A DNA stretch of 43,724 nucleotides, taken from positions 1-43,724 of IMG/VR virus record IMGVR_UViG_3300020470_005312. One strand, given 5' to 3'. Under the pieces are notes generated by a model. It searched no databases and was not told the DNA's origin. It was given only the letters and a program-made list of their open reading frames with translations. Below are positions 1 to 43,724 of this stretch, piece by piece; positions within the stretch are counted from its first letter, which is position 1, and each line of letters begins with the position of its first letter. Position numbers and translations under genes: made by a program. The DNA is from a virus.

Positions 1-3000
1 CATTACATACACCACATTCATCAACAACAGCATCACCACCACATTCACCATTACAATCATCTTCTAATCCTTCAGGACAATCCCAATTTGTATCATCATA
101 ACAAGTATAACTTGAACCTTCTAATGTCGGATTACTACACATTTCATATCTAACAAGATTTATTCCACCATCATTGAAACCTCCATCAAAAAATGGATTG
201 GATGGAGTATGTCCGTGAACCACATAAGTACCAGATTCATTTGGAATAGATGGAACGCCCCCAATAGTGTCACTCTTGACACATACAAAATCGTGATTTT
301 CTGCATATGGAATACCATCTCTGTCCCAATCCCTAAAGAAAATATACTCTGTATTTAAAATACCTGCCGAATTACAAACTCCACAATTGTCTACAGCACC
401 TGGTAGACAACAATGGTCTTCTTCATTACATTTAATGTTTCCATCACTAGCAAAATCACAAATTCCAGTTGTATCACTTATATTTTCACCACCATAAAGA
501 CCACCACAATCAACACATCCTACATTCCAATTTAAATTTCCTGGTATATAATCACTACCCCAAATATCCGCACAAGGATTGTTGAATATGTAATTACCAT
601 TTGCAAGTCTCCATCCATCTCCATCCCAACTAGGAATATAATCACCTTGTGGACAAGAACCATCTATTGTCCAATTACAACAAGTCATTGTCATACAATT
701 ACCACAATCATCTGTCTTATGACCATTCTGGTCACTAAAACATTCAACATTATCTCGACAATCACTATATAAAGTTATGTCTGACTCTTGAGACGAACAA
801 TGACCACAACTATCCCAATACCCATATTCACAAGTGTCATTTGGGTCACTTGCATAAGTACCATCAGCTAACTGATAACAATTAGTTCCATCACTATCAA
901 CAGGACAAGGACATTCATCATACACATCATAAACAGCATTATATCCTGGACACATATATGTGTTAACACATGTCGAGTCACCTAAATTATCATCACAAGG
1001 ATGTCCGTCTTTATCAAAATCTAATCTACACGATATTTTATTATAATCTAAACCATCACCGTCACCATCTCTATCAAAACAAGGAACACAATTTCCACCA
1101 AATCCGGCTGATATTGAAAAATCCATTGAACCATCAGGTGCACCTATACCACAAGGGTCTGTAACCCAACCAGTTCCACAAACACCACGACAGTCAAATC
1201 CAATAGAAGAATCACAAGATGAAATATCATTATTTGTAGTCCAACAAGGATAAGTACCTGGGTCACATATACATCTTATAGCTCCTATATTGTCATCAAA
1301 TTCTAAACTTCCATTACAATAATCAGGTCCGTCACAGACACCACAATCATCTATCACATTCGACTGACAATAATCATTCGGGTCATTACATACAGGGTCA
1401 CTACTACAATCACCACTATCACAACAATCACATTGGTAATAATTTTCTGGCTCTTCACATTGAACAACAAAAGCGGAATCACAATTTGTCAATTCATCAT
1501 TATCAAAATCGTGATACCATTTTGTTCTATAATAACAAGAACCATCGTCTACTTCAGCTTCTGCATCATAATTACAAGCAGGTTGTCCATCTGGATGATG
1601 TGGATATCCCGCATCAACAGCTCCACTACCATCTGCATCTGTACATCCGTGTTGAAAACACTTACTCGGAGACAATATTGAATCTCCACCATTTGTAACC
1701 ACAGAAACTTTAATTCTACAATCAATATTATTTTCACAATTTATAGTTGTGTCGTGAGAACATACTCCTTGATATAATCCATCATGTTGAGAACCACCAC
1801 ATAAATTCACATCTGAATAAATATGATATTTTATTTCATTGATTCCCCCATCGACACCATAATTACCACCAGCTAATATTTTCATACATCCTAATGGATA
1901 CTCTTGTTCATAAAATGGGTCATATAACTTTAAATATATTTTTTCGTGAGTGTTATCATTTACTTTATTTTTAATTGATAAACTATAAATAGGTGTAGTG
2001 TCTACAGCATTACCATCACCACCATCATTTAAAATTTTTGGATAAGGATTATTACTTATCAAAGATGAAGGAACATTATCATCTAATGAACTACTACCAT
2101 CCCAAGTTAGATATGGAACTGGAAATGTTGGATTATCCCAATATAAATGTCTATGCATTGTAATATCACCATCATCGAAAGTACCATTACCATAATCATA
2201 ATGAGTACCTCTAACTAATTTCTGATAAATTGTTGGAGGACCTTGAGTCAATGGATTTAAAACACAAGACCAAGAACAAGAACCAACTTCTTCACATTCT
2301 TCAACTTGATTTTCCCACCCTTCCCAATTATCATTGAGTTCAGTTCCACATCCTATTCCAGCAGAACCATAATGAGTTTGACAAGCTTGTCCTTGATAAG
2401 GTCCGTCTTCACAAATATAACCATAAAAGGTTGAACCAGCAGTAAGTCCCAAAGATGTCACTAATTGATTATGTGTTTCTGAATTGGCCACATGTTGAAA
2501 ATTAGTAGTGTCATATCCAACAGGAGGTAAACTTTCAAATCTTGGTAAAATACCACGAATATCACAATCATTAAAACTGTTACATTGACTACAATCAATA
2601 AGTCTATCACCATCACTACATTCAGCTCCAAATATAGAAACTATTGGTATTCCATACGGACTTTTTATACTTGTAGTGTTGATTGTGTCAATTTCTCCAA
2701 AAAATGGGTCTGATGGATTTTCCCAAAATCTATCAGGTCCTAAATCACCTACATTTTGACAAGTTGATAAAGATTCATCACTACATCTCATTAACTTGAA
2801 ATTCATTTCATAATCATCTGGAAGACCATTCCAATCAGGTAAATAATAATTAAAAGTATCTGTCCATTTTTTAGGGAAATCATGTAGACAACAATGTTCA
2901 AGTTTATCTATACAATAATTACCAGTATGTTCACCAGGACATTGTCCATCACAATTAGAATCAATTCCAAATGTTTTACATTGAGTTGTACATTCATAAG

Positions 3001-6000
3001 GTGTTGATTCACTTCCTGTCTCAACCATCTCACAAGTACCCGCCCAATTACCTTCTGTAGTTTCACCTACTTGTACTTGACCACACGAGTAAATTCCCCA
3101 AAAACAAGGGTCTCCATCAGAAGCATTATCACCACAACAAGGTTCACCATATTCACAACCATCAGTTCCTAATGCTCCACATTGTAACTCATAAATAGGT
3201 ACAGGCATTTCTGTCCAATTACAACCATCACCCACATCAGCACAATCACCATTGAATGAATCTGTATACATTCCTGCAGTCACACATCCTAATTCCATAA
3301 TAGGAGTTACCACATCCGTTCCACATAAAGGATTTCTATAACCATTCACATCACAAGTTTCATCACCGATTGGATAATATGTATCACCATTTGGGTCTAA
3401 CTTACAAACATAATCTGGTCTTATTATACAAGTACAATTTGTCCCTCCACAACCAGGGTCATTTTGATATACACTACCACCAATATCATCTTGACAAACA
3501 TAAGGCCATCCACCTTCAGGAATATCATAACAACCATTACACGATGTAGCCGCTCCATCCTCATCCCAACAATCCCAATCGTGATTTATATAAGGTTCTC
3601 CGTTATTTAAAAGTTGAGGGTATTTACTTGGACATCCTAAATACTGACTCATAGTTCTTGTTTGTTGGTATATATCATCTGTTGGAAGATTTGTTCTGTT
3701 CCATTGATTTAAAATATTTTCAACGATACTAAATACATCTGAACTATCCACGACACCATCTTGATTTACATCTGCAAAAAATGGTGCACATTCACTTATA
3801 AATGATAAATCATCAATATTGTTTATTATTTTTACAATATCAGTAACATTGATTTGACCATTATTATCAACATCTCCAAATTTAAAATCAGGAAACTGAT
3901 ATAAACAATTCAAAAATCCATCATCAAGATTAGGATTCAATGATGGTAAAGGTGGAGATGATTTTACAGAAACTTGTTTATCGTGTTTTCTTAACTTATT
4001 ATCTATAAAATTACTTTCTTTAGATTTAATTAATCTATTTTTAGCTTGTAATTGAGTAGACCTATTTTGACCAACAACTGTTACTTTTAAATCTGTTTGA
4101 CCAAGTAAGTTACCTTGACTATCTTTTATTATTAAATCAAAATTTCTAATACCAGGTACACCAGCTTGAAACCATCTACAATTAGGAATACCATTACATA
4201 TATCTGCATTATCATCGTATGATAAAGTTACTCCATCAGTCTGTATCCATTCATACCTGAATGTACTTTCATCGTATATATCGTCTTGATATAAAGAGTT
4301 TATTACTATTGGAAATCCTTCATCTTGATTTACTTCTAAATCAGGTCCTCCGTCAACTAAAAATGGTTGTACGCCCGTATCCCAAGTACCTGTCATAAAA
4401 CTCGCATAACCTATAGTACAATCTGAACCATCCCAACAAGGACCTGGATTACAATAAGGATTTTGGTCACCACAATTAGTGATATCATCTCCATCAGGAA
4501 AATAACAAAGATTACCATTTGTACAAAATCCCATCGCACAATCAACTTGTGCAACAGGAATACCACAACTAACTTCTTGTAAGGTGTTACTATCCCACCA
4601 AGTATAAAGTTGATTCCAATGAGTTTGTCCTTCTATTTCAAAATCTATACCAACATTATCACATGGTTCACATAAAGTTCCATCTGGTAATTCACAAAGT
4701 GGGTCATTCCCTAAATAGGAATCTCCACATTGATACAATGCCTCTTTCGCTTTAACTTCTACTCTAAATTTAGTGTTCATCCATTGATTAATATCATCCC
4801 AACCATCTACATCTTGAAAACCAGAAGGACCTGATATCGTGTTTTCGGTTATGACATAATTATGAACGACTTGATATACACCATCCCCAATATATTGAAT
4901 TGTCTCATCTTCATACCAAGAAGTAGAATTTGAAAAATTTTGTCCTGGTAAAGAAGCAATTCTTGTTGAAATAGATTCAACAGGATTATCTATACTATAT
5001 ATCTGAACTTTAACATCAATAGAATCTCCAGGTATTAAAATCGCATTATCTATTGATGTACCATCTGGATATGTTATCCAAACTTTATTTCTACAATTAT
5101 CAGGATTTTCTGTATCTAAACAACAATTAGATAGTTGTTCGAAGTTACTTCCACCACAAATACCACAAAGGTCATTAATACTATCTCCAAAACAAACACC
5201 AGCACAATCAAAATCACTTCCTACAAAAACACCATCACATGTACCACCTGTAAAATCCATAGTTCCACTACAATAATTACTACCATAACATACACCACAA
5301 TCATCATAACAACTTTCCGTACCAGTTCCTATCCCACCACCTTGACCATCACAAGTAGAAGGACATTGTTCACAAGAACCTGAATTATCTAAAACCCAAC
5401 CTGGAGGTTCTTCACCTTCACAAAATTGAGCAGATAAGTCAGGACAACCAAATCCATCCCAATCATTTGTATCATTGTAGTAGTCTAAAGGTTGGTCTCC
5501 ACTACAACCACATGGATATGATTCAGAACCTGGATAAGTATATTCACAACAAGTGGTATCACCATATACACCTAACCATATCCCGTTACAATTTTCATTA
5601 TTTATACTATAATCTTGTGAACATGATTCAAGACTTCCTTGTATTTGAGTATAGTTTACTTTTCTATAATGAAATGTGTTTATAGAACGATAATTTATCC
5701 ATAGACCTTCAAATTCGTCAAATGAAGGTGGGTCTGACTTTCCAGGATTGTCAAATGAAGTTCCAAGAGCAAAAATATTACATAATTCTGAAGCTTTAGA
5801 TTCGGAAAACAACCATGGATGACGAATATTGATAGGAAGGTCTGAACCAATTCCACCTTTCGATAAATAGAATGTACAAGCTTCTACATCTTTATCCCAA
5901 TCTGATTCCCAATTCCAATTAGGCACTGTTTCAGTTGAATAATTTGTAAATACTTCAGACACTACAGAAGATAATTTACCTGATAAACACACAAGATCCC

Positions 6001-7804
6001 AACTATCATCAAACGCATCACCTGCCTGTGATTCCCAAGCTTCTTGACAACTCATATATCCTATGTCATCTGGGTTAGAACATGCACCATACGGCAAGTT
6101 ATAATCCCCAGGTTCACCACAGTCATTCGAACCACCTAAATAGTGATCTCTAATTTGACATTGATTCATAGGGTGACCCCAAACATTAGTTATAGCACCT
6201 GATGATAATCCATATTGTCCACAACCTGACATAGCTCTCGCACCCCAATTATCTAATGCTTCATTTGTAGGGTCGTGGTCAGGTCTAAAATTCATATTAA
6301 AAAGATTAAAATACATTGTACCTATAATATCTGCATAAAATACAAATTCACCACCACCAAAATCATAACCTGGTGCACCATTACCTGTACCTGAACAATC
6401 ATTTGTATATGATGATTTATAATTACAGGATAATGGGTCAAGACATCCTACACATTGATTAGAACCACCACATATTCCACATTGGTCAAATTCATTTGAT
6501 GGACAATTACAATATTCTTGTGTCTCTTCACAGGTTTGTACTGCCCAGGGATATGTTACTGGACTTTGAGGACATATAAATGTTGACTCTTCACAACAAC
6601 CTATACCATCATTATCTTCATCAGTAAACCATTTATATTGATTTTGATAGACAGGGTTACATTGACTTACCGAATGTAATGTACAATCATTGTCTGAACA
6701 TAAATTACATTCAGTAAATGTTATATCATCATTTGTAAAAAGTGTAAATCCTTGAGAGATTAGTGTTGTGTAATTTACAGCATCACCTGGACAAGGACAA
6801 GGTACTCCTGATGGCCATGGAGTCTCACCATCACCGAATGGAAATCTCCATGTTGATTCTTCACTCTGACACCAGAATGGGTTGTCTTCTTTAAGACAAT
6901 AGAACATACATCCTTCATACTCACACATTTCTGTTACTGGAGTATCAGGACATTCACCTTCCACACATCCATCTGGACAACCAGGATAGCATATAGCACT
7001 ATCACCACAATTAGAAGTATCACCACCAGGAGTACAACTTAATAAAGTGTCCTCACAAAATCCTTCATTATTACAAGCTGGTTGTGTATAAAAATTAGAT
7101 GCATCCACATCCATACAACCATAAACTTCATCAATGATAGGAACACATTCAACATCCCTCATATTTTTTAATTCACAAGTTCCAGCTATAGCCCCACCAT
7201 TACCATCATCTTCACATATCCAAACTTTACAACAATCTCCTCTACCCTCACATTCAGGGTCACAATAACAATCCCTCGTTACTTCAACAGCACTAAATGG
7301 ATGAACTACAGAATTTTGAGGGTCAACTTGAGTTGTTACTTGAATACCAACCTTACCACTATCGTTACACATATTTCCTTGAGGTCCGTTGAGACAACTA
7401 CAAGCACCTTCTACTCCATCGATAGGGTCTCCACATGTACTTGGAAAATTATCTTCAGAACTTTCATAATACCTACAACAATAACCATTACCTACTGATA
7501 AGTTACCAGCTGTAGCAGTCCACATTGGAATATTATAAAAAACATCACCATCTGTTTGATAGTAACCATTACAAGAACAAGGATTATAATCATTTTGAAA
7601 TGTTAATACATTATTACATTGAAACTCATTATCTAATTTACCATTGTAACCACAACAACTTGGAAAAAGTCCACCTGAAACAGCGGGGTCTATAGCCCAA
7701 TCATACTCTAATCCCATAGAGTTCATTGGTGAACAATCACTAGTATCTGTACCACACTGTGGCCATTCGTAATAATTTAAATCTGCTTGACAGTTAAAAG
7801 CCAT
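1..7804 (-). CDS. Giant cysteine-rich repeat protein with dockerin-like pair (3' end outside window)
   Basis: An uninterrupted minus-strand frame runs from an ATG at 7804 to the left edge, at least 2600 codons, with no stop seen. It starts 11 nt after the 1521-aa gene and has AAGGA about 8 nt upstream. The protein is packed with cysteines. It repeats the D-x-C-G-[VI]-C-x-G module (near 5-22, 370, 1340, 5150, 5300 and 6480) and many D-x-D-x-D-G calcium-type loops. Around residues 1311-1322 and 1345-1356 lie two dockerin/EF-hand-like loops (D-V-D-N-N-G and D-V-N-Q-D-G). Such modules are known from long secreted proteins of marine bacteria. I infer an extracellular, calcium- and disulphide-stabilised fibre or adhesin, probably virion-attached. 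I see no signal peptide and no known tail-fibre domain. The reading frame is certain; the role is not. Confidence 0.85.
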   Translation of the reverse strand, partial: MAFNCQADLNYYEWPQCGTDTSDCSPMNSMGLEYDWAIDPAVSGGLFPSCCGYNGKLDNEFQCNNVLTFQNDYNPCSCNGYYQTDGDVFYNIPMWTATAGNLSVGNGYCCRYYESSEDNFPSTCGDPIDGVEGACSCLNGPQGNMCNDSGKVGIQVTTQVDPQNSVVHPFSAVEVTRDCYCDPECEGRGDCCKVWICEDDGNGGAIAGTCELKNMRDVECVPIIDEVYGCMDVDASNFYTQPACNNEGFCEDTLLSCTPGGDTSNCGDSAICYPGCPDGCVEGECPDTPVTEMCEYEGCMFYCLKEDNPFWCQSEESTWRFPFGDGETPWPSGVPCPCPGDAVNYTTLISQGFTLFTNDDITFTECNLCSDNDCTLHSVSQCNPVYQNQYKWFTDEDNDGIGCCEESTFICPQSPVTYPWAVQTCEETQEYCNCPSNEFDQCGICGGSNQCVGCLDPLSCNYKSSYTNDCSGTGNGAPGYDFGGGEFVFYADIIGTMYFNLFNMNFRPDHDPTNEALDNWGARAMSGCGQYGLSSGAITNVWGHPMNQCQIRDHYLGGSNDCGEPGDYNLPYGACSNPDDIGYMSCQEAWESQAGDAFDDSWDLVCLSGKLSSVVSEVFTNYSTETVPNWNWESDWDKDVEACTFYLSKGGIGSDLPINIRHPWLFSESKASELCNIFALGTSFDNPGKSDPPSFDEFEGLWINYRSINTFHYRKVNYTQIQGSLESCSQDYSINNENCNGIWLGVYGDTTCCEYTYPGSESYPCGCSGDQPLDYYNDTNDWDGFGCPDLSAQFCEGEEPPGWVLDNSGSCEQCPSTCDGQGGGIGTGTESCYDDCGVCYGSNYCSGTMDFTGGTCDGVFVGSDFDCAGVCFGDSINDLCGICGGSNFEQLSNCCLDTENPDNCRNKVWITYPDGTSIDNAILIPGDSIDVKVQIYSIDNPVESISTRIASLPGQNFSNSTSWYEDETIQYIGDGVYQVVHNYVITENTISGPSGFQDVDGWDDINQWMNTKFRVEVKAKEALYQCGDSYLGNDPLCELPDGTLCEPCDNVGIDFEIEGQTHWNQLYTWWDSNTLQEVSCGIPVAQVDCAMGFCTNGNLCYFPDGDDITNCGDQNPYCNPGPCWDGSDCTIGYASFMTGTWDTGVQPFLVDGGPDLEVNQDEGFPIVINSLYQDDIYDESTFRYEWIQTDGVTLSYDDNADICNGIPNCRWFQAGVPGIRNFDLIIKDSQGNLLGQTDLKVTVVGQNRSTQLQAKNRLIKSKESNFIDNKLRKHDKQVSVKSSPPLPSLNPNLDDGFLNCLYQFPDFKFGDVDNNGQINVTDIVKIINNIDDLSFISECAPFFADVNQDGVVDSSDVFSIVENILNQWNRTNLPTDDIYQQTRTMSQYLGCPSKYPQLLNNGEPYINHDWDCWDEDGAATSCNGCYDIPEGGWPYVCQDDIGGSVYQNDPGCGGTNCTCIIRPDYVCKLDPNGDTYYPIGDETCDVNGYRNPLCGTDVVTPIMELGCVTAGMYTDSFNGDCADVGDGCNWTEMPVPIYELQCGALGTDGCEYGEPCCGDNASDGDPCFWGIYSCGQVQVGETTEGNWAGTCEMVETGSESTPYECTTQCKTFGIDSNCDGQCPGEHTGNYCIDKLEHCCLHDFPKKWTDTFNYYLPDWNGLPDDYEMNFKLMRCSDESLSTCQNVGDLGPDRFWENPSDPFFGEIDTINTTSIKSPYGIPIVSIFGAECSDGDRLIDCSQCNSFNDCDIRGILPRFESLPPVGYDTTNFQHVANSETHNQLVTSLGLTAGSTFYGYICEDGPYQGQACQTHYGSAGIGCGTELNDNWEGWENQVEECEEVGSCSWSCVLNPLTQGPPTIYQKLVRGTHYDYGNGTFDDGDITMHRHLYWDNPTFPVPYLTWDGSSSLDDNVPSSLISNNPYPKILNDGGDGNAVDTTPIYSLSIKNKVNDNTHEKIYLKLYDPFYEQEYPLGCMKILAGGNYGVDGGINEIKYHIYSDVNLCGGSQHDGLYQGVCSHDTTINCENNIDCRIKVSVVTNGGDSILSPSKCFQHGCTDADGSGAVDAGYPHHPDGQPACNYDAEAEVDDGSCYYRTKWYHDFDNDELTNCDSAFVVQCEEPENYYQCDCCDSGDCSSDPVCNDPNDYCQSNVIDDCGVCDGPDYCNGSLEFDDNIGAIRCICDPGTYPCWTTNNDISSCDSSIGFDCRGVCGTGWVTDPCGIGAPDGSMDFSISAGFGGNCVPCFDRDGDGDGLDYNKISCRLDFDKDGHPCDDNLGDSTCVNTYMCPGYNAVYDVYDECPCPVDSDGTNCYQLADGTYASDPNDTCEYGYWDSCGHCSSQESDITLYSDCRDNVECFSDQNGHKTDDCGNCMTMTCCNWTIDGSCPQGDYIPSWDGDGWRLANGNYIFNNPCADIWGSDYIPGNLNWNVGCVDCGGLYGGENISDTTGICDFASDGNIKCNEEDHCCLPGAVDNCGVCNSAGILNTEYIFFRDWDRDGIPYAENHDFVCVKSDTIGGVPSIPNESGTYVVHGHTPSNPFFDGGFNDGGINLVRYEMCSNPTLEGSSYTCYDDTNWDCPEGLEDDCNGECGGDAVVDECGVCN

Positions 7805-7815
7805 ATAACTTTTCC

Positions 7816-10800
7816 TTAATTCCTATATCTTACTGGACAATGACTATTAGCACTTATTAAACCGGCATCTACTAATTCTCCTGGTATATAAGGACCTAAA
7901 CCGCCTGCATAAACATCATCTGGAAAGTCAGACAAATAGCTGTCAATATTACGATACATAGGTCCGTACCCACCGTTTACTTCTTGGTATTCCGCCGATT
8001 GACAATGGTCACAATCAGTTCCATCATCATACCAACTCGATGAACCTCCTCCACCATAATATATACAAGTATAAGAACCATTTGATGCAGACCATACCAT
8101 ATTACAACAAGCTTCGACTGCACAATAAAACCATGGAGCTAATGTTTTTAAATAAGTATCGTCTGGATATCCAGATGCCCAAACATTGTCTCCACTAACT
8201 GATAAGTTGGAGTCATAGAAAACTCCGTGAGCATCATTCTCATTACCACCCGATACAAAACCAGCAGCTGCTACCATTTCACACCAAGCATCTGGTGGTG
8301 CAGCTGGATAAGTATTCATCATACCTTGACTTCCACCACCTCCTTGAAATGCACCTGTATTAAAAGCACCATCATTACATTCTTTTACAGTTGGGTTAAT
8401 AAGATTACCCTGCCAGAATGTATAAGTTTCTGACATATTCTCTCTGGTTGTTAATGCCATACAATCAGCACATGGTGTATCATCCCAATTATGAAATACA
8501 CAGTCGTTAGCACCAGTATGAGTACCAAATCCTATTTGACCTCGAACATCATCCCACGCACAATGAGACCATCGATAATCACAGCAATCTCTAAACCAAA
8601 CACATGCAAAACTACAATCACAGTCTTGATTGTCCAAATAAGAACCACCTGACCACCATCTACCATCTTCACCTGTAGAAGTTCCAAAACAATTATTGTT
8701 ACAAGTTTGTAATCCACCACCACATGAAGAACCATCACCACCACAAACTTCACAATAATCTATATAATTATCAACATGTCCATCACCACCACCAACTGTA
8801 GCAGGTTGACCTCCAGCACAAACACCACACATACCAACTCTATTTTCACAAGACCTTTCTTTAGTAAAAGGATGTGAACAATCAGCTGTATTGGAGTAAT
8901 AACAAAGACCAGTTATACCTTGATATGCATATTGACTTCGCCACTCATCTCTTATTGATGGTTCTACATTTAAAGATTGTACCATTTTTGGATTTGCTTG
9001 TTGTTGAATTTTTCCTTTTCCACCAGCTTTATAGTACCAGTATTGATGCGAACCTGCATAATTACCAGCACTATCCTGTCCTCCACAATATCCAGCAAAG
9101 TACTCTGAAAGGTCTCCTGATTGACCTTGACATAAATTTATATTAAGTGCACCGGGACCGCTAGGTGTGTAATTAAAAGTATAAGAACCTACTATTTGAT
9201 TATTTACATTATATATTTGTTTTGTGGTTTTAACAGTTCTATCCCCTTGACCACATCTGTTACTTCCTGTACATGTTTCTGCCCAGTTAATTCGACCTAC
9301 TATCGGATTTCCATCAGGATCTAAATGAGATTGGTCATAAACTCTATTATCCCAAGCTTTATAATCCCATCCTGTCAATTCTTCTCCACCATTACTTGAA
9401 CATACAGGGTCACCATATGTTCCACTTAAACCCCCACAATCACTTGCACACCAAGTATAACACTCACACCACTTATCTGTCCAATCATTCTGGTCTTCAC
9501 CAAACCATCCATCACCTTTACATTCACCTGCAGGTGCACCTGCACCACCAGCTATATTTTCTTCAGGGTAATTTCCAGCTGGTACTTGATTACTTGGGTC
9601 ATTACCATAATGCATACAAGAGCTAGAATTAAAAATTGGGTTTGTACAATAAGGATGTCCACCACAACATGCTGGTCTATCAGCATAACTATCAAAACTA
9701 ACACAAAGTTGTTCTTCTTCAGGAGTACAACATTTTATACAATTATTACACGAATCAAAGCTAGCACTTCCATTTGACACACCCGTACAATCTTCACAAG
9801 ATGAACCATTACCACCACATACACCACAATCATCAAAGAAATTTGCGGCACAATCACAAGCCAAATCCCAACCTAAATCTGCCCATGCACAAGGTTGACC
9901 ATCACTACAAATAATGTTGTTATAATCTGATTGGTTTATAGCAGATGGTGCAGGTCCTTCAACATAATTTGCTGGTGCTGCACCACAACTTAAGACATAA
10001 TCAACATTACCTTCACAAGGTTGACCATCACCATCTGAATCATAATAATAAAATTTAGGTGGTGATGCATCACATCCAGTATAACTTGAACTAGCACCTG
10101 ATTGCATAGTTCCACAACAACAATTAGAGTCCATACCTTCTGCCGCTGAACAATTTAATCCTAATTGTTCTTGTTCTGCAGTTGACCAAGTTCTACCACC
10201 AATACAAGAAGCAAAATAAGCTGAAAGACCTCCATCACAATCTCCACAGTCATCGAGTTGAGAACCATATCCTGCATCACCTGGACAAAGACCATTACAA
10301 TCTACCCAATGGTCTGGGTCACATGAAGGATTTTGTGTATTTTCACCACAACAGAGACCACAACTATCATCATAAGTGTCACTAGAACAATCGTGGTCTA
10401 TATCACTACAAGAAGTAGACCAATTAGACGAATCTGGGGCATCCAATGGACAAGCCCGTATTGGTACACATTGTTCAGGAGTTTCAGAACAATTTACTCC
10501 AGGATTTGCTCCAAAATCTCCATCATAATCATCTGGTAAATGAGAGGTACAAGGTCGACATCCATCAGTTTCGTTTGCCCCCAAAATAGGACAATACCAA
10601 TCACCATAATCACATAAAGATTGGTGATGTTCTACACAAGTCGAACAATAGTTACAAGCTGTTGGGTCAGTACAACCAAATACATTGTCTATTACAAATT
10701 CTGAATTTATAGCTTCACAATTACCACCATCACAATTTAAACCACCATCTTTATAATTTAATCTCGTGCTCCAATCTGTTTTTAACCAAGCCCAATTTGT

Positions 10801-12381
10801 TACCTGTTCACCACCATTTTCATCAGCTACAAATGTGTGAAAATAAGTAGCACATACAGAATCTGCCAAATCTGATGAAATATCATTAGGTAAACACATT
10901 GGGTCATCAACTATATCAAATGTGAATGTTTCTGATGGAAATCCGACTCCACTTACTGGCCAAGTAGTACTTGAGGTTTGTCCAAATGGATGATTAAATT
11001 CATAACACCAACCTTCATCACCACCTGTGTGTGGATTTGAACAAGTTCTTTCTTTATCACCAGAAATACAATCATAGTTACCTTGTAAACAATCTTCATA
11101 TCTAATTCTATTGTAATATTTATTTACAAAAGTTTCGTTTAATAGATTGCTATATGTAAGTTGATTTGTATTAAAAACGCTAGATGGACAATAACTACTC
11201 TCATTACCTTGACAATAGGTAGCTTCACAATATTCATGAGTGTTGGGTTCAGTTAAACCTCCACAATGCCAATGACCAGAATTTGAACCTTCACCTAAAC
11301 CTCGTTGACAATAACCAGCAGGATTACAAAATCTTCTTGGAGGAACAGTTCCTGGCCAAGCATACTCACACAAATAAACTCCATCATCGCCTTGTGTATG
11401 CATTGTACAACTATAATTTGGATTTGCAATCCAATAATGATTTATACCATCCCAATCTGTACCGGTTGGTGTAGACGATTGAGCAGTGCCCCATACTGTG
11501 TTATGGTTACTATTTTTACTATAATCACTACCATCACAACCAGCAGAATCACTACACATTCCACCCATTCCAAAAGTTTCGTCCCAATAACCACATTTAT
11601 CAGGTTGAGTTCTATCTGCAGAAGTGTTACCAAATAAAGTATTCATGTTATCATCCCATGTCTGTTGAGGATAACTATCAATTCTATATTGTTGATTTAC
11701 ATCACATTCACCTTCAACACCTGTATGTAAAGGTTGGAATTTTGTATCAAAACCACCACTCGAACCTCCGTGAAATTTAGCTCTAACTTCAGCTAAAATT
11801 TCACCTGGAATTATACCAGTAGATGTACCTATAGTTGACCTTCCAGCTATGACTGATGAAGCTATTTTACCTCTTTGTGATAATTCGTAGTTAATGCCAC
11901 CAAAAATACCATTAGGTTCTAAACTACTCGGACCTATGTTATCGTAATCAAAAATCATACCAGCCGGATTACCCCAAGCTGACCTTACTCTTGTTATAAT
12001 CAGTCCATTTATATGTGAAGGGTCATCACCATATGTTACTTGGTCACCATCAGTACCAACATTAACAGTTTGTCCCCATAGTCCAGATGTAGCATCTAAA
12101 ACTATTCTAAAGTCACCTATGTTTCCTTGATAAACATTTGTAGGGGATGGCGTACTACCACATACACCATTTGAAGGAATGAAATCATCAGGTCTTGTAC
12201 TTCTGATGGAAGCTATTGAAAAGTTTATATATCCAGGGTCATCCCAATGGTCATCATTATCTTTTGTAAACCATATATTACTTACAAAAGTATATAAATC
12301 ACAAGGTTCAATGTCACAAGAACAATTAGGATTCATTGGATCCGTGTAACAACTATTCATGCATGTGTTCGGTGATGGCAT
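7816..12381 (-). CDS. Large cysteine-rich repeat protein, 1521 aa, putative virion fibre or adhesin
   Basis: Start ATG at 12381 follows AGGAG with five A's between. The 1521-aa product is very rich in Cys, Gly, Asp and Trp. The first 250 residues contain few cysteines and look like a beta-rich head, including W-D-D-P-G near residue 46. The rest has D-D-C-G-V-C-G-G-N-G-type modules and one G-C-T-D-P-T-A-C-N-Y unit near residue 566, a hallmark of repeat-containing secreted proteins of marine bacteria. No signal peptide, membrane segment or sortase/T9SS tail is visible; the C-terminus ends in plain R-Y-R-N. It sits 11 nt upstream of the giant ORF and is probably co-transcribed with it. I infer a structural or host-binding phage protein; a soluble secreted adhesin is the alternative. 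Confidence 0.85.
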   Translation of the reverse strand: MPSPNTCMNSCYTDPMNPNCSCDIEPCDLYTFVSNIWFTKDNDDHWDDPGYINFSIASIRSTRPDDFIPSNGVCGSTPSPTNVYQGNIGDFRIVLDATSGLWGQTVNVGTDGDQVTYGDDPSHINGLIITRVRSAWGNPAGMIFDYDNIGPSSLEPNGIFGGINYELSQRGKIASSVIAGRSTIGTSTGIIPGEILAEVRAKFHGGSSGGFDTKFQPLHTGVEGECDVNQQYRIDSYPQQTWDDNMNTLFGNTSADRTQPDKCGYWDETFGMGGMCSDSAGCDGSDYSKNSNHNTVWGTAQSSTPTGTDWDGINHYWIANPNYSCTMHTQGDDGVYLCEYAWPGTVPPRRFCNPAGYCQRGLGEGSNSGHWHCGGLTEPNTHEYCEATYCQGNESSYCPSSVFNTNQLTYSNLLNETFVNKYYNRIRYEDCLQGNYDCISGDKERTCSNPHTGGDEGWCYEFNHPFGQTSSTTWPVSGVGFPSETFTFDIVDDPMCLPNDISSDLADSVCATYFHTFVADENGGEQVTNWAWLKTDWSTRLNYKDGGLNCDGGNCEAINSEFVIDNVFGCTDPTACNYCSTCVEHHQSLCDYGDWYCPILGANETDGCRPCTSHLPDDYDGDFGANPGVNCSETPEQCVPIRACPLDAPDSSNWSTSCSDIDHDCSSDTYDDSCGLCCGENTQNPSCDPDHWVDCNGLCPGDAGYGSQLDDCGDCDGGLSAYFASCIGGRTWSTAEQEQLGLNCSAAEGMDSNCCCGTMQSGASSSYTGCDASPPKFYYYDSDGDGQPCEGNVDYVLSCGAAPANYVEGPAPSAINQSDYNNIICSDGQPCAWADLGWDLACDCAANFFDDCGVCGGNGSSCEDCTGVSNGSASFDSCNNCIKCCTPEEEQLCVSFDSYADRPACCGGHPYCTNPIFNSSSCMHYGNDPSNQVPAGNYPEENIAGGAGAPAGECKGDGWFGEDQNDWTDKWCECYTWCASDCGGLSGTYGDPVCSSNGGEELTGWDYKAWDNRVYDQSHLDPDGNPIVGRINWAETCTGSNRCGQGDRTVKTTKQIYNVNNQIVGSYTFNYTPSGPGALNINLCQGQSGDLSEYFAGYCGGQDSAGNYAGSHQYWYYKAGGKGKIQQQANPKMVQSLNVEPSIRDEWRSQYAYQGITGLCYYSNTADCSHPFTKERSCENRVGMCGVCAGGQPATVGGGDGHVDNYIDYCEVCGGDGSSCGGGLQTCNNNCFGTSTGEDGRWWSGGSYLDNQDCDCSFACVWFRDCCDYRWSHCAWDDVRGQIGFGTHTGANDCVFHNWDDTPCADCMALTTRENMSETYTFWQGNLINPTVKECNDGAFNTGAFQGGGGSQGMMNTYPAAPPDAWCEMVAAAGFVSGGNENDAHGVFYDSNLSVSGDNVWASGYPDDTYLKTLAPWFYCAVEACCNMVWSASNGSYTCIYYGGGGSSSWYDDGTDCDHCQSAEYQEVNGGYGPMYRNIDSYLSDFPDDVYAGGLGPYIPGELVDAGLISANSHCPVRYRN

Positions 12382-12411: not shown

Positions 12412-12440
12412 TAATAAATATATAAATACATCATTTATTA
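12412..12440. other. AT-only inverted repeat in gap before the 1521-aa gene
   Basis: TAATAAAT at 12412-12419 is matched by ATTTATTA at 12433-12440, an 8-bp perfect but AT-only stem with a 13-nt loop that includes the stop codon of the 289-aa gene. It could be a weak 3' structure between two genes. The stem has no GC pairs, so a real terminator is doubtful. Confidence 0.2.
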
Positions 12441-13307
12441 TTTCTTTTTTGTTCTTTTTGGTTTAATTGTTTTTACTTTTTTAACTGTCTTTTTTGGTTT
12501 AGAAGCAGTTGGTTTTTTCACAACTTTTTTCTTTATAGGTTTTGTTGACCTTTTTTGAGCTTTTTTATCTATTTTTTTATCCATTCCTTTTTTAGTAAAA
12601 TTCTTAGCGGCGGCCGCATCCATCATTTTCTTTGTCGAAGATTTTGGTAACTTTCTAGCCGACTTTCTTATCATTTTTTGTAATTCTTTAGCTCTTTTTT
12701 CAAACTCTTTTCTATCTTTTTCTAATTTTCTACTATTTTCTTGATTTTGTTTTTCTAATACATCTTGAGTTTGTTCTTTTACACTTTCCAATTGAGCTTC
12801 TAATGCTTCTTTGATTCTGTCTAAATGAATATTCAATTTATAATTGAGAACATACGCAGTACCTATTTTACTTATTTTATATGTACGATATGCCTGAAAA
12901 TCAGGACTTATATCTAAAATTTTTGGTTTGATAACCTGTTCATATAAATTTCTTGGAATTATTTTATTACCTAATGGTATATCGACTTTTGTATAAGCTC
13001 CTCGTATAAAATTATATCCACTACCAGCTTCAACATAATTAACTGGTATTTTTCTTGATATCAATGTAAACATCCTCTGTACAATGTGTTGAGGTAAATA
13101 ATTTAAATTGACTCCATGCAATAGTCTTTTCTGTCTTTCTTTAGCCAAAACAAAAAACATTGGTCGTGGGTCTCCTGCATCTTGACCTATCATACCCGTT
13201 TTTGACCTATATTGAAATTCAATAATCATTCCTGGAAAAACTCTGTCAATAGGAACTTTTTCTCTATTCAATAAAAATTGTCTATGATTTTTTCTTTTTC
13301 TGGCCAC
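12438..13307 (-). CDS. Phage protein with lysine-rich histone-H1-like tail, 289 aa
   Basis: Starts with GTG (no ATG nearby) behind AAGAG. The N-terminal half (residues about 18-70) reads as a compact domain running from V-F-P-G-M-I-I-E-F to G-V-N-L-N-Y-L-P. I associate this pattern with small conserved proteins next to structural genes in marine T4-like phages, but I cannot name the family. A charged coiled-coil-like stretch follows (about 165-215). The last 70 residues are almost all Lys, Pro, Thr and Ser, like bacterial or phage histone-H1-like tails. This predicts a DNA- or polyanion-binding protein. It sits 10 nt from the upstream 483-aa gene within the cysteine-rich cluster. Function unknown. 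Confidence 0.8.
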   Translation of the reverse strand: MARKRKNHRQFLLNREKVPIDRVFPGMIIEFQYRSKTGMIGQDAGDPRPMFFVLAKERQKRLLHGVNLNYLPQHIVQRMFTLISRKIPVNYVEAGSGYNFIRGAYTKVDIPLGNKIIPRNLYEQVIKPKILDISPDFQAYRTYKISKIGTAYVLNYKLNIHLDRIKEALEAQLESVKEQTQDVLEKQNQENSRKLEKDRKEFEKRAKELQKMIRKSARKLPKSSTKKMMDAAAAKNFTKKGMDKKIDKKAQKRSTKPIKKKVVKKPTASKPKKTVKKVKTIKPKRTKKK

Positions 13308-13317
13308 TTATATTCTC

Positions 13318-14769
13318 TTAAAAATCAATATATGGATTTTCTAAATCTTCTTCATGTGGACAATTTGGACAATGGTCATATCCATTACTATCTCTTCCCA
13401 TAATAGTAGGAAGCCATTCACTATTTAATGGGTTCATCCAATCATATTCATAATTACTTCCACCACCACGAACCTCACCACCACCAGGAACTGATCCACA
13501 ATAACATTGACCACATACTGCACCTGTCCATTGACCTGCATACTGTGGCATACATATCGCCTCTAATCCATTTGCACAATTATTAGAACCTCCACCACTT
13601 GTGCAATTATTTCCAATATTTACTTGAGCACATTCACAAGTTCCCTCATCACCTGTCGGTACAACACCTTGATCAGTTACACCACCAATTGTAAAATCAC
13701 TAGTACCATGACCACAAGTTGAACTTAAAGACCCTACATTACAAACCTCATTCGGTGCACAAGTACCACATTGATTGGGGTCATCACACCAAGCTACAAA
13801 TTCGTCTGCAGAACCAAAAACCCATGCACCCATATGAGCGCCCCATATTCTCGGAGCCTCGCCAGGGTCTAATAATTCAGATGTTGCTGGAAATGCACCA
13901 TAACCAGGTCCACATAATCTATTTCTTCCTCCAGGATTATCTACAAAAGTTGATTCATACCAGTCATATGCCCTTGTTTCTTCTGGAAACTCTGAACCCA
14001 ATTGAACATATTTATAATAAGACCACATTGGTGACCTTGATGATTCATTACCATTTATATTGTCTTGCCATCCAGCACGACTCCAAGAAATTCCTAACTC
14101 GTAGTAATAAAAAAACCAAGAATTATACCACGAAAGTACTTCATCTGGATGTGGATTATTTCCACAAAATTTTGAACACAAATCATCATCTAATATGTCT
14201 GCTCTACAATAAGCCCCTCCCAATTCTTCACATAATATTGCACTCCAATCAGCGACTGTTATATTATCATTACCATCATCTATTACTTTTTCGAGATATC
14301 TTGGACACGAAAAATTATCTTGATTATAATTGTAAGCTGGAGGTAAAGCACAAGGAATCGGAGTTGGGTTATTATTTAAGTTTCTATTTCCTCTTAAAAT
14401 CCAATTGGATGTCTCTTTAAACCAAGTAGAATTTGAACGATTAACACCATCATTCGGAAAAACTTGGTCTGGTGTAATTTGTTCTGATAATGACCTTGTC
14501 ATAATAACACCTGGATTATCCCAATTTTCTTGGTCTGATTCACGAGTAACACTTTGATTTCCACTTTGTAAAAATGATAGATATGTTCTATTACTTCTAA
14601 AAACACCTGTAAAATCATTACCACCAAAAACAGAATTTTTTTGTTCTTCTGTTAATTCAGGACTAAATGCATACCTAAAATTATTTGTAGTTAATTTAGA
14701 ATTAAGATAATCAACTATTGTATTTCCTGATTTTTTACTATTTAAAGGTTTTTTATTAGTTCTTCTCAT
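13318..14769 (-). CDS. Cysteine-rich protein, paralogue of the neighbouring 350-aa protein, 483 aa
   Basis: ATG at 14769, 11 nt after the paralogue at 14781-15833. Residues 99-188 align without gaps to residues 126-215 of that paralogue; I count 77 of 90 identical. The N-terminal Y-L-N-S-K-L-T-T-N-N-F-R is also shared exactly. Beyond residue 190 the two differ completely. This one has a Trp/Tyr-rich region with W-S-R-A-G-W, then a Cys/Gly-rich tail (residues 330-440) with C-x2-C-x4-C spacings, and no dockerin loops. It looks like a shared attachment module with an exchangeable distal part, as in phage fibre proteins. No signal peptide is seen, and function is inferred from context only. Confidence 0.8.
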   Translation of the reverse strand: MRRTNKKPLNSKKSGNTIVDYLNSKLTTNNFRYAFSPELTEEQKNSVFGGNDFTGVFRSNRTYLSFLQSGNQSVTRESDQENWDNPGVIMTRSLSEQITPDQVFPNDGVNRSNSTWFKETSNWILRGNRNLNNNPTPIPCALPPAYNYNQDNFSCPRYLEKVIDDGNDNITVADWSAILCEELGGAYCRADILDDDLCSKFCGNNPHPDEVLSWYNSWFFYYYELGISWSRAGWQDNINGNESSRSPMWSYYKYVQLGSEFPEETRAYDWYESTFVDNPGGRNRLCGPGYGAFPATSELLDPGEAPRIWGAHMGAWVFGSADEFVAWCDDPNQCGTCAPNEVCNVGSLSSTCGHGTSDFTIGGVTDQGVVPTGDEGTCECAQVNIGNNCTSGGGSNNCANGLEAICMPQYAGQWTGAVCGQCYCGSVPGGGEVRGGGSNYEYDWMNPLNSEWLPTIMGRDSNGYDHCPNCPHEEDLENPYIDF

Positions 14770-14780
14770 AATTCAGTCTC

Positions 14781-15833
14781 TTAAAATGGGTCATTATATG
14801 TTTGTTTATTACTTTGAGCCATATGTCTATCGAGTATACGCTTCATTCTCTGTAATATAAATTGTTCAGTTTGTTGTTCAATAATATCATTTTCTAATAA
14901 ATTTAAAATATTATTTAATATTATTATGTCACTATCAGTTGCATCTGTTGATGGATTACGAGATAATATAAAGTTTACTAATAGAACAACATCAACTATA
15001 TTTATAGCACCATCACCATTTATATCTGCTAAAATAGGTGAACATACATCGTCTGAACCAGCATATCCCCAATCAGCAGTTCCTACAAGAATATTAATGA
15101 GATTGACTACATCAACTATATTTACTACTCCATCTAAATTAATATCACCATACTCATAAGCTCCAATACAAGGACTTTGAGATGAACTACAATAAGCTTC
15201 ACCTAACTCTTCACATAATATTGAACTCCAATCTCCAATTGTTATTGAATCGTTACCATCATCTAACACTTTTTCAAGTTGTCTCGGACAACTAAAACTA
15301 TCTTGACTATAATTATATATCGGTGGAACAGCACAAGGAATCGGAGTTGGATTATTGTTTAAATTTTTATTTCCCCTTAAAATCCAATTAGAGGTTTCTT
15401 TGAACCAAGTAGAATTTGATAAATTGACTCCGTCATTTGGAAAAACTTGGTCTGGTGTAATACTATTAGATAAAGACCTTATCTGATAATCATTTTGGTT
15501 ATTGTTTTGACTTAATTCTGATATAAGTCCACCACAACAAACATCTTCAGGGGTACAATTAGAAGCATTTTCATTCGCAGCTCGACAAAAATAACCAATA
15601 GAATCCCACGAACAAAAATCTGAAAAATGTACACATTGTTCTAAACCAAGTGAACAACATGTCATTTCATTATTAGTATTATATTCTAACGATTGATTGG
15701 ATATTGATTGACCACTAAAATATTCTCTCAAATTCAGTTCTTCTCTGAAATTGTTTGTGGTCAATTTACTATTTAAATATTTAGTAATGCTATTATCATT
15801 ACCAAGATTTTTTTTCTTAAAAATTTTCTTCAT
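14781..15833 (-). CDS. Dockerin-like repeat protein, paralogue of the 483-aa protein, 350 aa
   Basis: ATG at 15833 with GGAG 10 nt upstream. A Lys-rich N-terminus and Y-L-N-S-K-L-T-T-N-N-F-R are followed by a cysteine-rich block (59-100), then the module shared with the 483-aa neighbour (126-215). Next comes a textbook dockerin-type pair: D230-I-N-L-D-G with N238 and D241, and D270-I-N-G-D-G with N278 and D281, exactly 40 residues apart, each followed by an I/V-V-D-V-V helix. Type I dockerins bind two calcium ions and dock onto cohesins. In phage this may mean calcium-dependent subunit assembly. The tail (300-350) is helical and polar. The dockerin assignment is strong by pattern, but no cohesin was recognised in the window. 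Confidence 0.85.
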   Translation of the reverse strand: MKKIFKKKNLGNDNSITKYLNSKLTTNNFREELNLREYFSGQSISNQSLEYNTNNEMTCCSLGLEQCVHFSDFCSWDSIGYFCRAANENASNCTPEDVCCGGLISELSQNNNQNDYQIRSLSNSITPDQVFPNDGVNLSNSTWFKETSNWILRGNKNLNNNPTPIPCAVPPIYNYSQDSFSCPRQLEKVLDDGNDSITIGDWSSILCEELGEAYCSSSQSPCIGAYEYGDINLDGVVNIVDVVNLINILVGTADWGYAGSDDVCSPILADINGDGAINIVDVVLLVNFILSRNPSTDATDSDIIILNNILNLLENDIIEQQTEQFILQRMKRILDRHMAQSNKQTYNDPF

Positions 15834-18009: not shown

Positions 18010-18483
18010 TTACTCCTCGTCTATTACTATAACTTCCAAAGAATCTAAATAATGATTATTATACTCATCTGTATATCCAGCATATACTTTTACGGTATCA
18101 TTAACAAATTCTGACCAAGCTCCCAACACAGTATGAGCCTCTCCAAACTCATCCGTGTAAGAAGCTTCATTTACTAAATTAATCCATTGATTGCCCATCC
18201 ATATTTCTTTATTTGATATCCACGCTACTTTTTGATAATGAGTAGGTGAACCTGTATTAGCGGTAAGTGTAGTAAATGTTTGATTGTAACTATTTAAAAA
18301 TTCCATAATATAATAACCATTTTCATCCATTGGTAAATAAGATTCCAAAACTAAAAAATAATCAACTTCTGTAGTTTGTTCCTCTTCTTCTAATTCCCAT
18401 AACACAGGTTCAACAATATTTTGATTGTCACAACCTGTAGTTAATACACTTATAAATATAACCAAAAATAAATTTTTTACCAT
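18010..18483 (-). CDS. Phage-encoded lipoprotein, 157 aa
   Basis: Residues 1-17 are a short lipoprotein signal peptide: Lys3, hydrophobic core L5-L14, then T-T-G before C18, the predicted lipidated cysteine. Position -3 is Thr, which is not the usual Leu. Asp19 follows the cysteine; in enterobacteria Asp at +2 retains lipoproteins in the inner membrane. The mature part (about 140 aa) is acidic and beta-rich with several Tyr/Trp and no more cysteines; no family recognised. The gene overlaps the upstream 51-aa gene by 7 bases. Phage lipoproteins are known in superinfection exclusion and host-surface modification, which would fit. That function is inference; the lipobox call is fairly firm. Confidence 0.75.
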   Translation of the reverse strand: MVKNLFLVIFISVLTTGCDNQNIVEPVLWELEEEEQTTEVDYFLVLESYLPMDENGYYIMEFLNSYNQTFTTLTANTGSPTHYQKVAWISNKEIWMGNQWINLVNEASYTDEFGEAHTVLGAWSEFVNDTVKVYAGYTDEYNNHYLDSLEVIVIDEE

Positions 18484-21053: not shown

Positions 21054-22247
21054 TTACTCTTTATCTACATAGATTATTTTGTTTTCACATACAATATTAT
21101 CTTCAGAAATGTCAGTTAATGAACGAATGTTTAATCTAAAAATATCATACTGCATTTCTCCAACATCACCACTATCATTTAGAATATCTGGAAGTCTTTG
21201 AAGAAAAGCTAATCTATCTTGATTCATTTGATTAACATCAAATTCAACGACAATATCATTTGATATTTTACTTTCACTTTTTACTCTTTCATTCAAATCA
21301 AAAATAGTTTTATCTTGTTCTTCTGCTATGTAATCTAATATTAGTTTTCTATCTTCAAGATATATAGTAGAACACCAGGGTTCTAAAAATCTCAAGGATT
21401 CTAAATGACAATTTTTGGCTATAAATCCGATGTTATATTTTTTAGGAATAACCATATCTCTATTATCATCCCAAACTGTTCCTGGCCATACACCCCATTT
21501 TCTTACAAAATTTCTAAGTGATTTTTCATACTGACCATCTACATCTACCTTAATGTCATCAGTTTCTCTCATTCTAACACTTTTACTTGGCATATGATAA
21601 ACAGCAGTTTCAAATAATTGACAATATTTACCACCAGCCATTTTTACTCTTAAATAAAAATCGTCATCGTCTACCATATATTTTAAAAACAATGTATCGT
21701 TTCCACCTATTTCATTATAAAGTTTTTTAGTGGTCATCCAGGGAAAAAACATTCTCTGTTCAGTTCTACCTTTATTGTCCTCTGTGTTTTTTTCACTCCA
21801 TTTCAAAAAACCACCTTCATCAAAATCTTCTGATTTAGTTCCAAAGTCTACTAACTCCTTATCAACTGATGGAGGATATCCAACATTAGGTTCAACTCTC
21901 AATGGTGTGATAAAATCATATTCTTCCATATACTTCAACATAATTTCATCAAATTTTGGTGGAATGTACATATCACTATGAACCATACAAACTATTTCAT
22001 TTGAAGCCAATTCAACCATTTTATTATAAGAATATGCTATTCCTACATTTTCTTCATTTCTGTGGATTTTTAAATTATTATCTTTTTTAGATAAGTCTTT
22101 TATAAGTTCCCAAGTTCCATCTTCAGAACCATCATCTAATAGTACAATCTCATGTACATATCCTAAATTTTTTCTTATTGAATTATAACACCATTCTGTG
22201 TATTTTTTAGCATTATAATTTGTTATTATAAAACTTATATTATCCAT
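21054..22247 (-). CDS. Family 2 glycosyltransferase, 397 aa
   Basis: GT-A fold enzyme expected to transfer a sugar from a nucleotide donor. The N-terminus I-S-F-I-I-T-N-Y-N-A-K-K-Y is followed by L-L-D-D-G-S-E-D-G-T (Asp pair for the nucleotide) and M-V-H-S-D-M, the variant DXD metal site near residue 94. The remaining 200 residues are unlike other GT2 enzymes and may bind the acceptor. ATG 22247 is preferred over an upstream TTG because GGAG lies seven bases before it; the gene then overlaps its upstream paralogue by 8 bases. Last gene of the glycan island before the 721-aa cysteine-rich protein. Confidence 0.88.
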   Translation of the reverse strand: MDNISFIITNYNAKKYTEWCYNSIRKNLGYVHEIVLLDDGSEDGTWELIKDLSKKDNNLKIHRNEENVGIAYSYNKMVELASNEIVCMVHSDMYIPPKFDEIMLKYMEEYDFITPLRVEPNVGYPPSVDKELVDFGTKSEDFDEGGFLKWSEKNTEDNKGRTEQRMFFPWMTTKKLYNEIGGNDTLFLKYMVDDDDFYLRVKMAGGKYCQLFETAVYHMPSKSVRMRETDDIKVDVDGQYEKSLRNFVRKWGVWPGTVWDDNRDMVIPKKYNIGFIAKNCHLESLRFLEPWCSTIYLEDRKLILDYIAEEQDKTIFDLNERVKSESKISNDIVVEFDVNQMNQDRLAFLQRLPDILNDSGDVGEMQYDIFRLNIRSLTDISEDNIVCENKIIYVDKE

Positions 22248-27385: not shown

Positions 27386-27387
27386 AA

Positions 27388-27921: not shown

Positions 27922-27949
27922 TTTCTATTTTCTCCTATTATTATTATAT

Positions 27950-33055: not shown

Positions 33056-33066
33056 AAAGTCCTCCT

Positions 33067-43172: not shown

Positions 43173-43365
43173 TATCAATCTCCCTATCAACAAGACTTGG
43201 TTCTACTAAATCCTCATCATAATCACAATGAACTTCTTTTATGATTACATCTTTTTCTTTCCAACCTGTTTTATATAATATATTTTCGTTTTCAAAAGGT
43301 GGGTTATGTAATATAACTTTTATTGTTTGACCTCTTCTTGCATTCTCTACTAAAAATGTTTTCAT
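43156..43365 (-). CDS. Hypothetical protein, 69 aa
   Basis: Not recognised. It begins four bases inside the gp44 stop and overlaps the FKBP start by 17 bases. T-I-K-V-I-L-H-N and D-V-I-I-K-E-V are beta-strands, and the last 20 residues are acidic. No cysteine pair or membrane segment. It occupies a place between clamp-loader genes where T4 has none. Confidence 0.65.
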   Translation of the reverse strand: MKTFLVENARRGQTIKVILHNPPFENENILYKTGWKEKDVIIKEVHCDYDEDLVEPSLVDREIDNEDEG

Positions 43366-43724
43366 CTTATTATCCTTTTAAGTTTAATTATAGTTGACAT
43401 AAAATTAATTTCTTTATCCACAACATTTACATCTTGATACTGACCTTCAGCAATAGACAATATACATTCAGACTCTTTATCTTTTCCATAAGTTCCAACT
43501 TCATCATATAACAATCTATATAAATCAGAATAATCAGTTATAGAATTATCAGCTATCAATTGTCTTATATCATTTAATTTTGAACCATTCGACATTTTAT
43601 CCAATAACTGAATCTTGTAATCATTCTGAATAACTGAACTCACATCTATCTTCAACTTACCATCAACGATTTGTCTTTGGGCTGAATTAATAACTCTACG
43701 AATATCAGGATAACCAGCGTTTAC
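43362..43724 (-). CDS. 44: Sliding-clamp-loader large subunit, T4 gp44-like, C-terminal part
   Basis: The frame runs to the right edge with no start, giving 120 residues. G-Y-P-D-I-R-R-V-I-N-S-A-Q matches the P-D-I-R-R segment of the AAA+ lid (sensor 2) in clamp-loader subunits. L-Y-R-L-L-Y-D-E-V and A-E-G-Q-Y-Q-D-V-N-V-V-D-K-E-I-N-F match the C-terminal collar domain of T4 gp44. It is the ATPase of the gp44/62 complex that opens the gp45 clamp. Its N-terminal ATPase motifs lie outside the window. It ends with a four-base overlap with the 69-aa gene. Confidence 0.9.
   Translation of the reverse strand, partial: VNAGYPDIRRVINSAQRQIVDGKLKIDVSSVIQNDYKIQLLDKMSNGSKLNDIRQLIADNSITDYSDLYRLLYDEVGTYGKDKESECILSIAEGQYQDVNVVDKEINFMSTIIKLKRIIR

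Follow-up and report, generated by a model that had tools for sequence, protein, structure and literature searches.

A type I dockerin in a putative tail-associated protein of a T4-like phage fragment, and dockerin-ended apparent tail tips in marine siphophages

The window, by which we mean the whole 43,724-nucleotide stretch analysed here, is a 43.7-kb virus sequence (IMG/VR record IMGVR_UViG_3300020470_005312). One of its genes encodes a 350-aa protein made up of an N-terminal region, a middle domain, a type I dockerin and a long C-terminal helix, so that the dockerin is followed by the helix and is not itself C-terminal (Table 1). The next gene downstream encodes a paralogue of this protein, and a 289-aa ORF sits between the two Cys-rich/dockerin genes of this region. 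As judged by eye, the 350-aa ORF has no obvious signal peptide at its start, and inspection of the 2601-aa, 1521-aa and paralogue ORFs gave no recognisable one either.

Table 1. Features of the window discussed in the text
Feature	Position	Strand	Basis or remark
Giant Cys-rich ORF, 2601 aa, 7.8% Cys, open at the window end	2..7804	(-)	internal dockerin
Second dockerin module, residues about 1310-1363 of the giant ORF	3710..3877	(-)	Pfam
1521-aa Cys-rich ORF	7816..12381	(-)	N-terminal ~200 aa homologous to 1360-aa ORF of phage G496
289-aa ORF	12438..13307	(-)	relative in T4-like contig L003
483-aa paralogue of the 350-aa ORF	13318..14769	(-)	common N-terminal motif and middle domain
350-aa dockerin-bearing protein	14781..15833	(-)	ORF list, Pfam, AlphaFold2 model
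Predicted ~48-residue C-terminal helix, residues 300-347	14793..14936	(-)	AlphaFold2, pLDDT about 68-86
Type I dockerin module, residues 228-291	14961..15152	(-)	Pfam PF00404, VIA-align
Calcium loop 2, DINGDGAINIVD, residues 270-281	14991..15026	(-)	sequence, intact ligand positions
Calcium loop 1, DINLDGVVNIVD, residues 230-241	15111..15146	(-)	sequence, intact ligand positions
Middle domain, residues 118-215, common to the paralogue	15189..15482	(-)	DNA alignment
T4-type clamp loader, C-terminal part	43362..43724	(-)	phrog_168, E 2.5e-15

A first-pass annotation, made from the letters alone, had pointed to two calcium loops exactly 40 residues apart and had read them as a type I dockerin of a phage protein. 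The spacing is as it said: DINLDGVVNIVD and DINGDGAINIVD are 40 residues apart from first aspartate to first aspartate, which lies at the long end of the range (29-39 in 70 of 71 other pairs, from viral and host loci). The calcium ligands at positions 1, 3, 5, 9 and 12 are intact in both loops when compared with 63 viral pairs. The search with a type I dockerin profile that the annotation had proposed gave a match to Pfam Dockerin_1 (PF00404) over residues 228-290, with 33.9 bits against a curated cut-off of 22.9 bits (E 3.6e-8), and this match covers the profile in full, from position 1 to 57. AlphaFold2, run on residues 118-350, predicted two loop-helix units with a pLDDT of about 90-94 followed by the long helix, from an alignment made up mostly of viral and host dockerins, a composition that favours a dockerin prediction. 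The annotation had also raised the possibility that the loops serve some unrelated EF-hand use; when the predicted model was compared with the PDB by Foldseek and VIA-align, the top matches were exclusively dockerins (VIA-align Z 10.3 to 2ccl_B; Z 9.3 and rmsd 1.2 A to 1ohz_B), and phmmer of the ORF against the PDB returned weak matches only, almost all of them dockerins. Since the full-profile match, the predicted fold and the dockerin-only structural matches agree, the dockerin of the 350-aa protein is confirmed as genuine, far beyond chance.

By blastp, residues 229-341 of this protein are 34% identical to a 370-aa dockerin protein on contig L059, and the similarity extends into the C-terminal helix; the likeness to other phage dockerin proteins likewise takes in the dockerin together with the flank on its C-terminal side. 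Neither IMG/VR nor the cultured phages yielded close relatives of the 350-aa protein. The dockerin ORF had no match among 50,697 phage records, a search limited by BLAST low-complexity filtering, and tblastn with the bare dockerin gave no matches, probably owing to low-complexity masking.

The window carries a second dockerin, which the first-pass annotation did not mention, inside the giant Cys-rich ORF. It scores 33.6 bits with Pfam in the ORF search and 39.7 bits (E 2.6e-11) in a search of the whole record, with a loop spacing of 34. Pfam finds no enzyme domain in either of the two dockerin ORFs. The Cys content of the Cys-rich ORFs is 7-8%, versus about 1-2% in the other ORFs of the window, and the Cys-rich giants neighbouring the dockerin also carry a few D-x-D-x-DG loops. 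By blastp (E 1e-9), the N-terminal ~200 aa of the 1521-aa ORF resemble a 1360-aa ORF that adjoins a dockerin ORF in the related phage G496. Repeated D-x-CGxC and GCTDxxACNY motifs were seen in the giants at 2-7804, 7816-12381 and 18851-21016, and giants resembling these are also found in G496 and in another phage, G495.

The middle domains of the 350-aa ORF and its paralogue are identical at 237 of 293 aligned bases (81%). Where the former has its dockerin, the paralogue has a distinct Cys-rich C-terminus with no Pfam match, so that the two proteins seem to be built on one base to which different ends can be fitted. In both proteins the middle domain (15189-15482 and 14194-14499) ends in DDGND[SN]IT[IV]xDW, after which comes a helix, and this end has the look of half a dockerin loop; as a possible third half-loop, DDGNDSITIGDW, it is one residue short and falls in a low-confidence part of the model.

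From its gene content, the record is a fragment of a T4-like phage, and the attribution of the dockerin to a phage protein in the first-pass annotation is thereby borne out. The window holds a T4-type clamp loader, and syntenic relatives carry clamp, clamp loader and polymerase genes. One of these, a 67-kb contig (L003) in which no dockerin was found, has a gene run in common with the window together with polymerase, sliding clamp and clamp loader. The nearest phages for the window clamp loader are an uncultured phage, Mel-JY01 and cyanophages; for one of the glycosyltransferases, the nearest named phages are Microcystis phage Mel-JY01, the Flavobacterium immuto phages and Rhodothermus phage RM378. 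The window thus resembles T4-like phages such as Flavobacterium phage immuto, cyanophages and RM378 in its clamp loader and glycosyltransferase homologues, and differs from the cultured ones in its dockerin ORF, which is without a match there. No recognised tail gene was found in the window, the capsid and tail genes lying outside the 43.7 kb. A block at 21054-38381 contains sugar-nucleotide and glycosyltransferase genes (epimerases, a GDP-mannose dehydratase-like gene, an aminotransferase, a thiamine-diphosphate enzyme) and perhaps serves surface glycan change; one of its genes has up to 74% DNA identity to Neomarinimicrobiota genomes.

Because no tail gene is recognised in the window, a tail location for the 350-aa protein rests on its relatives. 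A pattern for the host-like dockerin loop found 98 stretches in IMG/VR, and these were the basis of a viral dockerin library; since the pattern fixes parts of loop positions 10-14, conservation at these positions is biased in the library. Contig L059 belongs to G496, a 108-kb phage syntenic with the window (60% identity for the HNH endonuclease, 64% for the glycosyltransferase), which has four dockerin ORFs in all. One of them, a 1195-aa ORF with a C-terminal dockerin, adjoins a 2731-aa Cys-rich ORF, and both match parts of the window giant, the match to the former including its dockerin end. The dockerin is therefore kept at the matching place in G496, the two parts being fused in the window. 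A baseplate-wedge gene (phrog_219, E 8e-27) in G495 is followed, about 3 kb further downstream, by a Cys-rich giant with a dockerin, and contig L087 has a head-tail adaptor Ad2 gene (phrog_211) in the vicinity of a 970-aa dockerin ORF. These structural neighbours argue for a tail or baseplate location of such dockerin proteins.

The same location is indicated by a family of siphophage proteins that takes in 54 of the viral dockerin ORFs. In contig L065 a tail-type gene is followed by an apparent tape measure and then by a dockerin-ended member of this family, an order that corresponds to the place of J-like tail tips, and we read the family as apparent tail-tip proteins. PHROGs gave these proteins no name, so that the assignment rests on gene order, size and inspection of the sequences; no cultured phage record matched them. 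A search of IMG/VR with the non-dockerin part of the family, a query free of the dockerin yet built from dockerin-bearing proteins, found 168 relatives, of which 80 were kept. A dockerin pair forms the end of 67 of the 72 stop-terminated ORFs of this marine family (40 of 44 clusters at 70% identity), and in 59 of these 67 it lies at most 4 aa from the stop; among the five exceptions, at least two look truncated or split. In pairs of tail tips with 70-80% core identity, the dockerins have a median identity of 52%, compared with a background of 47% between distant members. The tail-tip dockerins thus diverge faster than the core and independently of it, which is expected of a specificity module and fits an exchangeable or fast-evolving one; relaxed constraint can also account for it. 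A second siphophage family, whose members start like xxPRFYxxxLxFL, carries a dockerin in mid-protein (L073:2143-3960(-) and L078:5367-6539(+)), and in L065 the gene for a dockerin-free relative of it comes immediately after that of the tail tip.

The first-pass annotation had proposed looking for cohesins in the genome and in candidate hosts. In the window, PF00963 had no match at E<=10, and in 40 dockerin-bearing viral contigs, which are fragments, several of them of 25-108 kb, no cohesin scored above the Pfam cut-off. A match in a fibre-like ORF of contig L142 reached 17 bits, which is sub-threshold, and is not credited. The N-terminal ~200 aa of the 1521-aa ORF resemble a cohesin by eye, a likeness unsupported by every test made: there was no Pfam cohesin and no PDB match by phmmer, hhalign against 13 cohesin-like sequences gave a probability of 0.1%, and AlphaFold2 obtained no fold (pLDDT 27). 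Cohesins were found instead in the probable host group, in 36 of 61 sampled Neomarinimicrobiota genomes at E<=1e-3, and many of these proteins have C-termini that we read as T9SS-like, such as NYPNPFNP.

Several observations point to this phylum as the host group. A stricter dockerin pattern had six matches, in four of 84,980 species genomes: four matches in two Neomarinimicrobiota MAGs, one of which has 86 dockerin matches, and the rest in Prevotellaceae and Gemmatimonadota genomes. Dockerins at E<=1e-6 were present in 33 of 62 sampled Neomarinimicrobiota genomes, and contigs syntenic with the window phage occurred in two of 245 (G177 and G232), this being the one phylum searched. Relatives of the J-like proteins were found in five of 245 Neomarinimicrobiota genomes and, in the phylum to which a Prevotellaceae genome belongs, in one of 247, a weak difference; the large ORFs of the five regions inspected had no dockerin loop motif flagged in them. 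The window lipoprotein at 18010-18483, taken as a host marker, matched one of 100 Neomarinimicrobiota genomes, weakly. Against this host stands the closest cultured-phage glycosyltransferase, which is in Microcystis and Flavobacterium phages. Neomarinimicrobiota as the host group is moderately supported, and we consider it rather probable for the window phage, going no further because MAG contigs may be mis-binned and the DNA search covered Neomarinimicrobiota only.

We tentatively propose that the window dockerins are tail-associated adhesion modules that dock on a surface cohesin of a host of the FCB group, probably Neomarinimicrobiota. The genuine type I dockerin of the 350-aa ORF would then belong to a tail-associated T4-like phage protein; its two loops would bind the Ca2+ of sea water, so that the module folds into a plug, and the plug would dock on a cohesin-type domain exposed at the host cell surface, this contact being the virion's protein grip on its host. 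The paralogue would carry another binding end on the base that the two proteins share. A tail or virion location of the dockerin proteins is well supported by the genomic evidence. That the dockerin belongs to a virion protein, as the first-pass annotation supposed, gains from the baseplate-wedge and connector neighbours and from the tail tips, and for the 350-aa ORF would follow by way of these relatives. Its suggestion of docking on a host surface protein is plausible, and we infer a host cohesin as the partner. This is the simplest reading because the phages carry a dockerin with no recognised cohesin and the likely host group has both; against it, Pfam finds cohesins in only about half of the sampled Neomarinimicrobiota, and the dockerin of the 350-aa protein, with its long helix behind it, does not form a C-terminus.

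Phages with no recognised cohesin, in the window as in the 40 contigs, would also be expected if no cohesin were involved at all. The dockerin would then be a small calcium-stabilised fold, copied from host surface proteins, that only caps or stiffens a Cys-rich, calcium-binding fibre. Such a role agrees with the composition of the neighbouring giants, with their high Cys content and a few D-x-D-x-DG loops, and with tail-tip proteins that end in a dockerin like a cap. A cap, however, should not drift to near background at 75% core identity, a point that relaxed constraint could explain, and the aliphatic residues at positions 10 and 11 persist in both repeats, which is partly an effect of the search pattern. 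We regard this explanation as somewhat unlikely.

The presence of several dockerin ORFs in one phage (four in G496) might instead suggest joints in virion assembly. In that case the dockerins would plug into some other virion protein that bears a diverged cohesin, tying fibres together or linking them to the baseplate. The obvious candidates, the 1521-aa and 1360-aa proteins beside the dockerin genes, have in common the very N-terminal domain that looks cohesin-like by eye and failed the cohesin tests. Neither the window nor the 40 viral contigs gave a cohesin, which leaves the docking of fibres on each other, also suggested at first, unsupported; moreover, conserved joints would be expected to coevolve with the core, whereas the dockerins diverge faster. 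Assembly joints are thus quite improbable. Not every phage dockerin need be virion-borne, because the frame of a lipoprotein-like trypsin-family protease in G496 runs on into a dockerin, and such proteins could act on the infected cell, the dockerin attaching them to the host's own surface complexes. For the window proteins such a role is very unlikely: the 350-aa and 2601-aa ORFs lack a recognisable signal peptide, and the structural neighbours in G495 and L087, with the tail-tip family, point to virions.

The dockerin is an ordinary domain in an unusual setting, outside any cellulosome and on phage tail-type proteins. Like the type I dockerins of the Clostridium cellulosome (1ohz, 2ccl), the window module has two 12-residue F-hand calcium loops and two helices, and its predicted fold superimposes on cellulosomal dockerins with Z 9-10 and rmsd 1.2-1.9 A over 56-62 residues. 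Unlike them, the window dockerins sit on phage proteins with no enzyme domains, with a spacing of 40 in the 350-aa ORF; the record, itself a fragment like the others, holds no cohesin scaffold, and no secreted enzyme is joined to the dockerin. In both repeats the loop has aliphatic residues (I-V) at positions 10 and 11, whereas cellulosomal dockerins use residues such as S-T there. The loop style DxNxDGxxNIxDIV is that of Neomarinimicrobiota and other non-cellulosomal bacterial dockerins, which occur in many copies per genome; those of the hosts lie in cellular, largely secreted-type proteins, those of the phages on tail-type or Cys-rich proteins. As C-terminal ends of a siphophage protein encoded after the tape measure, the tail-tip dockerins are comparable to phage receptor-binding tips (lambda J, T4 fibre tips), none of which, to our knowledge, is a dockerin.

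We found no description of dockerins in virion proteins in the literature covered, and as most subscription journals lie outside this coverage the absence is no proof. In the single phage paper there that names a dockerin for a structural protein, PMC5967307, the mention concerns a carbohydrate-binding module of a cellulosome protein (2wz8). The dockerin-ended tail tips suggest that viruses grip other proteins with a docking device, most likely on the host surface. Even more tentatively, a broad range of marine phages, T4-like phages as well as dockerin-tipped siphophages, may use dockerins as receptor-binding modules that plug into host-displayed cohesins, the docking system of the host being the phage receptor. 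Of the non-covalent interactions known between proteins, that of cohesin with dockerin ranks with the strongest, and it is regarded as a device of the cellulosome. With dockerins as regular ends of tail tips and on several T4-like phage proteins, this device would acquire a second role in biology. The phages of uncultured marine bacteria would then have a receptor class that can be put to the test, and the occurrence of dockerins where no cellulosome exists would be explained in part.

The protease mentioned above (L059:9962-11461(-)) is found on five marine viral contigs (also L055, L063, L064 and L098). In all of them an in-frame TGA stands where the Cys of SWGxGC is expected, and the frame runs on into the dockerin; in L059 a cohesin-like stretch lies between the two. 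Such a pattern is suggestive of selenocysteine or of an unusual stop; when the RNA downstream of the TGA was folded as single sequences, the folds were no better than those of shuffled sequences. Two small G496 proteins (L138:5333-6415(-) and L059:3349-4461(-)) carry, besides a lamin-tail-like domain recognised as Pfam LTD in the L059 protein and by similarity in the L138 one, a dockerin and a very basic tail at the C-terminus.
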